Source of the DNA: Clostridia bacterium
Lineage (GTDB): Bacteria > Bacillota > Clostridia > Clostridiales > Clostridiaceae
DNA: 35,276 nucleotides
Assembly (NCBI GenBank): GCA_009930125.1
Contig: RZYZ01000002.1
Location: forward strand, 1-35,276
Reading direction: 5' to 3'
Position 1 is the first letter of the stretch. Every line of letters starts with the position of its first letter. This document shows positions 15,161 to 33,970 of this stretch, piece by piece. Below the pieces are notes generated by a model. It did no database searches. It saw only the letters and a list, made by a program, of their open reading frames with translations, and was not told the DNA's origin. Position numbers and translations under genes: made by a program.

Positions 15161-15504
15161 GAAGCAAGTAAGTCAGATAATCGCTGCTGACAGCTGTCAG
15201 GAGAGGAAAGTCCGAGCTTCGCAGAGCAGGGTGCTGGGTAACTCCCAGTGAGGGTGACCTTAAGGAAAGTGCAACAGAGAGATACCGCCTCATTTATGAG
15301 GTAAGGGTGGAAAGGTGAGGTAAGAGCTCACCAGCGCATTGGTGACTTTGCGGCTATGTAAACCCCACTTGATGCAAGGCCGAATAGAGGGACATATAGG
15401 GGCTGCTCGTCCCGTCCCCGGGTGCGCCGCTTGAGCCATGTAGAAATACATGGCCTAGACAGATGATTATCTAATACAGAACTCGGCTTATAGATTTGCT
15501 TGCC
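15161..15504 (+). ncRNA. rnpB: RNase P RNA (bacterial class A-like)
   Basis: Conserved segments gaggaaagtccgagct, gcagggtgctgggtaactcccagt, gagggtgacc...aaggaaagtgcaacagagagataccgcc, ggtaagagctcaccagcgcattggtgactttgcggctatgtaaacccc, gcaaggccgaatagag, tagacagatgattatc, aactcggcttatag; terminal pairing gcaag / cttgc. Confidence 0.96.
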
Positions 15505-15514
15505 CATTGAAAAC

Positions 15515-32048: not shown

Positions 32049-32924
32049 CTATTTAAAATGCTGTGTAGCGTATAATGTGGGGAGTTTTCTGTCATACTTC
32101 GCGAAGTACTGGTCTCCTTTTAGTACGCCTGCACCCATTCTGGTCACCCTGGAATCCAGTATGTTGGCTCTGTGACCTGGCGAATTCATCCATTTTGCAA
32201 CGATGAACTCGGCAGAATATTTACTGGAGTCGCTAGAGGCGAGCATATAAATGTTTTCTGCCACTGCGTATTTCGTTGTATGTGCGAAGTTGTTCGTCTC
32301 AAACATGAGTCTTGTGTGACTTCTGGATGACTGATAAAGCGAATCATCCCAGACCAGATTGCTCAGCCCGTTTTCTCTTCTGTACCTGTTTGTAACCGCA
32401 AGAATCTCTTTTTCCACCTGACTTAAATAGGAGAATGTCTTTGTCTCCTCAACAGGAGGGGCTACTGGAGCAGGAGATTCCTTAGGGGGTTCAGGTTCTT
32501 TTAAGGGTTCTGGTACTGGAGACTCTTTGGGTGGGGCAGGGGCAGGTTCTTTCACGGGTTCTGGAGCAGGTTTGGAAGCTACGGTTTCAGCTGGTGCGGC
32601 AGCAGGCTGCTTTGCTGGAGCTGATGGTTTTGGTGTAGCGGGTTTTACTGGAACTGTGGATGCCTGTACAGCTGATTTTGTGTCTGATGCATTTTCGTTT
32701 TTTGCAACAGATTCCTGTTCTTTTTGAGCGGCAGCTTCGGCTGCTAATCTCTTTCTGTTTTCGGCAATCGCTTTTCTTTCTTCAAGATGGAATTCACCAT
32801 GAATGATTTTCATTTTATCTGCAAGATCGAATGAGAAACCATCCTCGTATCTGGTCAGAACCCTTGGTGCTGGGGTATAAGTGATGATGGATTTCTCTTC
32901 TAAAAGCTGCTCAGCATTGGTCAT
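32049..32924 (-). CDS. CAP/SCP-domain protein with Pro/Glu-rich linker; this ORF is the part downstream of an in-frame amber codon
   Basis: C-terminal CAP domain (EKEILAVTNRYRRENGLSNLVWDDSLYQSSRSHTRLMFETNNFAHTTKYAVAENIYM...IVAKWMNSPGHRANILDSRVTRMGAGV); ATG 32924 has an agaggtt SD-like sequence. Confidence 0.85.
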   Translation of the reverse strand: MTNAEQLLEEKSIITYTPAPRVLTRYEDGFSFDLADKMKIIHGEFHLEERKAIAENRKRLAAEAAAQKEQESVAKNENASDTKSAVQASTVPVKPATPKPSAPAKQPAAAPAETVASKPAPEPVKEPAPAPPKESPVPEPLKEPEPPKESPAPVAPPVEETKTFSYLSQVEKEILAVTNRYRRENGLSNLVWDDSLYQSSRSHTRLMFETNNFAHTTKYAVAENIYMLASSDSSKYSAEFIVAKWMNSPGHRANILDSRVTRMGAGVLKGDQYFAKYDRKLPTLYATQHFK

Positions 32925-33035: not shown

Positions 33036-33395
33036 TACTCACCTCATACTTTCATGATATTTTTAATATAGTAATTCTAATACGTGTGAATAATATCATA
33101 ACTTTTCTTACTCTACAATTGTTTGAGAAAACTGAACTTTATTATGGGTATTAACATAATTTCACCTCAAAAAATAGTACAGCGGATAATATTCGCGTGT
33201 TTATTGAAGTGAAGTGAGTTAAAGTAGAATGTATAGAATAAAAATATGTGCAGTTTAAAATTTCGCCAAAAATACATTGAGATCCACCACTGATTTAAAT
33301 GAAAATTGTAGAAAAATAAATTTAAATATGTAATAGAATGTTAACAAAGAACCAAATGCAGGTGATAGTTATTCGCTAAATTGAATGAAGATAAT

Positions 33396-33427
33396 ATAAA
33401 ACCGCCGGAGACACCCGGCGGTTTTAT
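33396..33427. terminator. strong GC-rich terminator, likely of the 37-aa minus-strand gene
   Basis: ataaaaccgccgg / ccggcggttttat stem with short loop, T run on both strands. Confidence 0.75.
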
Positions 33428-33508
33428 ATTTCAAGGAATATTTGTTTCATTGAACTTAACCAATAGAATGACAAACATGGTCAAGTGCGATCTATTGTGA
33501 ATGAGTTA

Positions 33509-33622
33509 TTATAGAAATTTTTTCTGGATGTCCATTTCTCTCTGTACTAGCCATGGATTAAAGTCATGAGCAATGGAATCTTCAGTAATGAATCTGACGA
33601 CTGCTTTGAATACTTTTTTCAT
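33509..33622 (-). CDS. candidate microprotein, 37 aa (MKKVFKAVVRFITEDSIAHDFNPWLVQREMDIQKKFL)
   Basis: ggaggttccaatATG Shine-Dalgarno context; upstream TTGACT-N17-AATAAT promoter; downstream terminator at 33396-33427; not in the ORF track because it is below the length cutoff. Confidence 0.6.
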   Translation of the reverse strand: MKKVFKAVVRFITEDSIAHDFNPWLVQREMDIQKKFL

Positions 33623-33659
33623 ATTGGAACCTCCATGTTTTTTCTTTTTATTTTTCTCT

Positions 33660-33695
33660 CATGTACATTATTGCAAATCTGTACATGCAAGTCAA
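33660..33695 (-). promoter_or_regulatory. promoter of the 37-aa gene with overlapping operator-like palindrome
   Basis: Minus strand TTGACT (33695-33690), 17-nt spacer, AATAAT (33672-33667); inverted repeat CATGTACA-N12-TGTACATG (33660-33667 / 33680-33687). Confidence 0.6.
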
Positions 33696-33970
33696 GAACT
33701 AATTGTTAAATAATAATGCAGGATTTCCTGCAAATATCAAAAATGTAAAGGAATCTGATGACATCTGAACAAAATAATATAGTTTTCTCTTATATTAAAG
33801 AAAAATAGATTATTGAGTGGAATTATTATGAGAATGAAACATGAAGGTCTATTTCAATCGTTTACAAATACAAGTTTCAGAAAGTAATAATGCGTTTTCT
33901 GCAAGTTGGTTGATGAAACCGTCCTGTTTTCTGATACAATATTTACATCAGAGTGAGGAGGTTATTCAAA

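Follow-up and report, generated by a model that had tools for sequence, protein, structure and literature searches.

A conserved 37-residue microprotein and its probably regulated promoter in Proteiniclasticum and a related Clostridiaceae genome

Automatic annotation tends to overlook microprotein genes. The window (the whole 35,276-nucleotide stretch of DNA that was analysed) raises the question of whether such a gene lies in a 930-base gap, between msrA on the plus strand and a CAP-domain gene on the minus strand, and what its product might do. The original prediction described a minus-strand ORF of 37 amino acids with its own ribosome-binding site, TTGACT-N17-AATAAT promoter and GC-rich terminator, and took the whole transcription unit to be dedicated to this small protein. 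All of these signals are present (Table 1); the terminator, first given as 33427-33396, is slightly longer. As predicted, the signals are not used by any longer ORF on the minus strand, and the overlapping ORFs of 46-47 aa lie on the plus strand, which is the wrong strand for the promoter and terminator.

Table 1. Window coordinates of the microprotein ORF and its associated signals.
Feature	Position	Strand	Description
Microprotein ORF, 37 aa	33509..33622	-	Product MKKVFKAVVRFITEDSIAHDFNPWLVQREMDIQKKFL
Ribosome-binding site GGAGG	33630..33634	-	7 bases 5' of the ATG; genus-wide; GGGGG in G008
-35 hexamer TTGACT	33690..33695	-	Identical at 5/5 orthologous loci
-10 hexamer AATAAT	33667..33672	-	GATAAT in the MAG relative G008
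Perfect inverted repeat CATGTACA-N12-TGTACATG	33660..33687	-	Putative operator; overlaps promoter spacer, -10 and inferred start
Palindrome TGCAGGAAATCCTGCA	33717..33732	-	Centre ~64 bp upstream of the inferred transcription start
GTCATTCT	33465..33472	-	Identical 8-base run in all five 3' untranslated regions
Intrinsic terminator	33393..33430	-	17-pair stem, 4-base loop

A scan of 1.6 kb turned up 12 promoter-like sites, of which the promoter of the unit (33695-33667, minus strand; TG before the -10 hexamer) scores best, with 10 of 12 matches. Since chance would be expected to yield 7.1, the promoter match by itself would be weak evidence. Three terminator-like sites were found against 0.7 expected by chance, and that of the unit has the sole long stem; in P. 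ruminis one C-G pair of this stem has become T-A, which keeps the pairing. Signals alone are no proof of a gene, and in our reading of the sequences it is conservation that supplies the proof.

A whole-genome search identified orthologues in 5 of 208 Clostridiaceae genomes, including all four of the Proteiniclasticum genomes among them. Identity to the window copy is 100% in Proteiniclasticum aestuarii SCR006 (G001), 65% in two P. ruminis genomes (G002 and G003), and 40-41% in a Clostridium sp. MAG from another Clostridiaceae genus (G008). Loss of the frame in relatives had been named beforehand as the sign of a spurious gene; the frame is intact in all five orthologues, across two genera, with no stops and no frameshifts, so the original prediction stands. 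The window and P. aestuarii copies differ by six synonymous and no nonsynonymous changes (chance without selection ~4e-5), and the two P. ruminis copies by four synonymous and no nonsynonymous changes (~2e-3). Between the window and P. ruminis coding sequences, dN is 0.20 and dS ~2.2, with 71% of the synonymous sites different. Because the frame is conserved in five of five orthologues and the changes within close pairs are all synonymous, the gene is almost certainly genuine, and the substitution pattern argues strongly for purifying selection on the protein. The family contains only three clearly different sequences, across which 11 residues are invariant (K2, D15, I17, D20, F21, N22, P23, W24, L25, E29 and D31), eight of them in the region comprising D20-W24, L25, E29 and D31.

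Conservation is confined to the unit. Over the whole msrA-CAP intergenic region the window and P. ruminis share 49% identity, but a conserved island at 33732-33393 stands out, which runs from the upstream palindrome through the promoter, ORF and terminator; the flanking spacer outside the island is unalignable between the species. Together with the orthologues and the absence of nonsynonymous changes in the close pairs, this strongly supports the claim of a transcription unit dedicated to the 37-aa protein. In all Proteiniclasticum the unit is flanked by azlCD-msrA and the CAP gene, and in G008 by a lacI-type regulator gene and a 2-oxoacid oxidoreductase gene. Since the neighbours differ in G008, the gene travels without them, as a stand-alone unit, and comparison with the G008 locus revealed no operon partner or conserved neighbour outside the genus. 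The same comparison bears on the possibility that the ORF is a leader peptide governing the CAP-domain gene through attenuation. In the genus that gene does follow the ORF, on the same strand; however, a 358-base gap and a full terminator separate the two, the gap beyond the terminator shows no conservation between species, and the downstream gene in G008 is a different one. Leader-peptide control is thus as unsupported as an operon partner, and we consider it extremely unlikely.

Three other features of the window were noted. The CAP-domain protein (32049-32924, minus strand) contains a long proline-alanine-rich linker, which in P. ruminis consists purely of PA repeats and varies in length. 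A 40-base AT-rich block at 33772-33811 is 100% identical to P. aestuarii and unalignable with P. ruminis. The RNase P RNA, of bacterial class A, lies at 15165-15506 on the plus strand.

The promoter is preserved more closely than the coding sequence: the window and P. ruminis agree at 39 of its 40 positions, spacer included. The spacer between the -35 and -10 hexamers is ordinarily free to vary, and its conservation here suggests a bound regulator. The promoter is probably regulated, with the inverted repeat as its operator, judging from the position and distribution of the repeat. The exact CATGTACA-N12-TGTACATG occurs once per Proteiniclasticum genome, only at the microprotein promoter, and is lost in G008, where the promoter retains TTGACTTGCAT, ATTTG and ATAATGTA. 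A wider regulon for the dyad was considered and rejected, given this single exact copy and two-mismatch sites that were overall no commoner than those of a control pattern. A promoter pattern derived from the five loci matched the same five only among the 208 Clostridiaceae genomes. The upstream palindrome (consensus TGCARG-N4-CYTGCA) is present in all four Proteiniclasticum genomes, with half retained in G008, and its arms vary in parallel within the genus (GG/CC, AG/CC and AG/CT); it is a possible activator site. Elsewhere the palindrome falls within coding frames, among them a long conserved one shared by four genomes; one case (L068) is ambiguous, and the palindrome was rejected as a recurring element outside this locus.

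A strong promoter and terminator flanking the unit, and the 8 bases of GTCATTCT, the only identical run of that length across five 3' untranslated regions that have otherwise diverged, would also suit a gene whose functional product is RNA, whether a ~270-nt small regulatory RNA or a dual-function RNA in which the ORF is secondary. However, the substitutions follow a coding pattern, the rest of the 3' region diverges, and the only fold common to the transcripts is the terminator. No Rfam family reached its cut-off at this locus; the best, BSnc120, scored 30.6 bits against the 114 required and fell on the terminator hairpin. The consensus fold had pointed to sequestration of the SD by the N-P-W codons, through a CATGGA/TCCATG pairing compensated in G008 as CAGGGG/CCCTTG, but single transcripts lack a common stem. 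At four of the five loci the SD is paired no more strongly than in redraws with synonymous codons: accessibility is as low in 14-82% of redraws for the window, P. aestuarii and both P. ruminis copies, and in 10.7% for G008. As the accessibility is not below that of the redraws and the stem is not shared, translational control by the RNA was rejected. An RNA product is in our view unlikely to be the function of the unit; a small RNA as an additional role is conceivable, given that GTCATTCT is kept in the five 3' regions.

The distribution of the family was analysed by profile search in overlapping samples of 208 family, 227 order, 391 class and 399 phylum genomes. No convincing relative beyond the five genomes was found in the order sample or in the class and phylum samples. 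The best match outside (G024, E 3.4e-4) proved to be an off-frame match, arising by chance, within a SpoVT/AbrB-like gene, and other weak matches were rejected as they contain stops or sit in large frames. No relative was found in the viral contigs, phages and plasmids searched, two PHROG matches (E 0.016 and 0.28) were taken as chance, and no paralogues of the gene were found. Pfam, NCBIfam and PADLOC gave no match, and neither did the PDB, by sequence or by Foldseek with the predicted structure. In the literature collection searched, no paper connects Proteiniclasticum with small proteins. Across the genomes sampled, the gene is lineage-restricted, to Proteiniclasticum and one related Clostridiaceae genome, and the family was previously unclassified: it is new as a family and ordinary in kind.

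The original prediction proposed an amphipathic helix, and the N-terminal part of every orthologue is amphipathic, with a best 12-residue hydrophobic moment of 0.76-0.85; shuffled sequences reach that moment in 0.9-8.7% of cases, the test being weak for P. ruminis. AlphaFold predicts a two-helix hairpin with helices at 2-20 and 23-36 (mean pLDDT 68, pTM 0.27), a model of low-to-moderate confidence, in which the C-terminal helix that had been foreseen is the second one and would be capped by N22-P23. The basic amphipathic N-terminal helix and the net charge of +2 to +3 might indicate a small membrane-active peptide akin to type I toxins or amphipathic cytolysins. Such a role is distinctly unlikely, as the protein has no transmembrane stretch, paralogue or toxin-family match and is not accompanied by an antisense antitoxin gene, and the strongest conservation is in the second half of the protein, not in the amphipathic helix.

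The best explanation, which we put forward tentatively and by analogy with other regulatory microproteins, is a microprotein under regulation that acts by binding another protein, perhaps at the membrane. The clustered invariant residues are as expected for a binding surface. The gene would be transcribed alone from a regulated sigma-A-type promoter, with regulation acting through the promoter dyad. The product of 37-40 residues would fold as two helices, the first basic and amphipathic and the second N-capped at its start by the invariant D-F-N-P-W-L motif. It would stay cytoplasmic, possibly on the inner membrane face, and could bind one protein partner through the D-F-N-P-W-L surface, altering the activity or place of that partner.

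The length of the microprotein, and its amphipathic N-terminus followed by a charged tail, are shared with AgrD, which is laid out as an amphipathic helix, a core and a charged tail. This three-part layout, and the presence of agrB in three of the four Proteiniclasticum genomes, could point to an AgrD-like precursor of a secreted peptide signal. Those agrB genes, however, adjoin their own standard AgrD with an S-A-C core, so that the genus has a separate AgrD. No orthologue of the microprotein contains a cysteine, and the sole near-core serine (S16 of the window copy) is not conserved. In no genome does agrB adjoin the microprotein gene; it lies elsewhere in three, with no match in G000 and G008, and G008 has the microprotein nevertheless. 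The window's own genome, in which an AgrB match is absent, is incomplete. The AgrD-like signal was rejected on the missing core cysteine and the agrB-agrD pair elsewhere in the genus, and we regard it as very unlikely. At the Proteiniclasticum agr locus (L059, L060 and L061), agrB and the AgrD-like peptide are directly followed by a GGDEF-motif membrane protein, which in the stretch seen takes the place of the usual AgrC/AgrA order.

The microprotein also bears a resemblance to Sda of Bacillus (PF08970), which is said to block phosphotransfer from KinA (PMC11925247). An Sda-like histidine kinase inhibitor would be a helical-hairpin microprotein that docks on a sensor kinase and blocks phosphotransfer, and the size (37 vs 46 aa), the predicted hairpin and the stand-alone gene with a putatively regulated promoter are all as this would lead one to expect. 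There is also a faint local likeness at the turn ([IL]-x-P-D-F) and at the C-terminus (DIKHRSL in G008 vs EIKRRSL in Sda), and a profile score against Sda of 8.9, which is matched by 1% of column-shuffled profiles. However, Sda was picked for comparison after the likeness had been seen, and hhalign gave a probability of 0.4% (E 0.08). PF08970 misses the locus in all five genomes, with the B. subtilis positive control recovered, its profile gave no match at E up to 10, and neither the window protein nor its relatives have any Pfam match. Nothing in the PDB resembles the predicted hairpin by Foldseek, and Sda lacks the invariant N-P-W-L motif of the microprotein. Membership of Sda is unsupported, and we judge an Sda-like inhibitor to be quite unlikely. 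Equally improbable to us is the founder of a new family that inhibits a signalling enzyme, such as a sensor kinase, via D-x-I-x-P-D-F-N-P-W-L; it would act like Sda but be of independent origin, and would have a dedicated regulator with a single operator in the genome.

The preferred reading, of a regulated microprotein that may bind a protein partner, adds a well-supported new family to a commonly overlooked class of genes. Its most interesting part is the promoter, conserved base for base with its spacer, which offers a handle on the regulator and on the condition of expression. Lineage-restricted microproteins are common as a kind, because in the GMSC catalogue more than half of the small protein families are genus-specific and 6.1% have a known domain (PMC11364881); a set of intergenic smORF families from Enterobacteriaceae likewise consists of lineage-restricted microproteins (PMC11188072). 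The present family shares with these (PMC11364881, PMC11188072) a short intergenic ORF, purifying selection, the lack of a known domain and a narrow distribution. It differs from them in the unusually good preservation of its probably regulated promoter, and in that the gene is kept in a second genus, in another genomic context.
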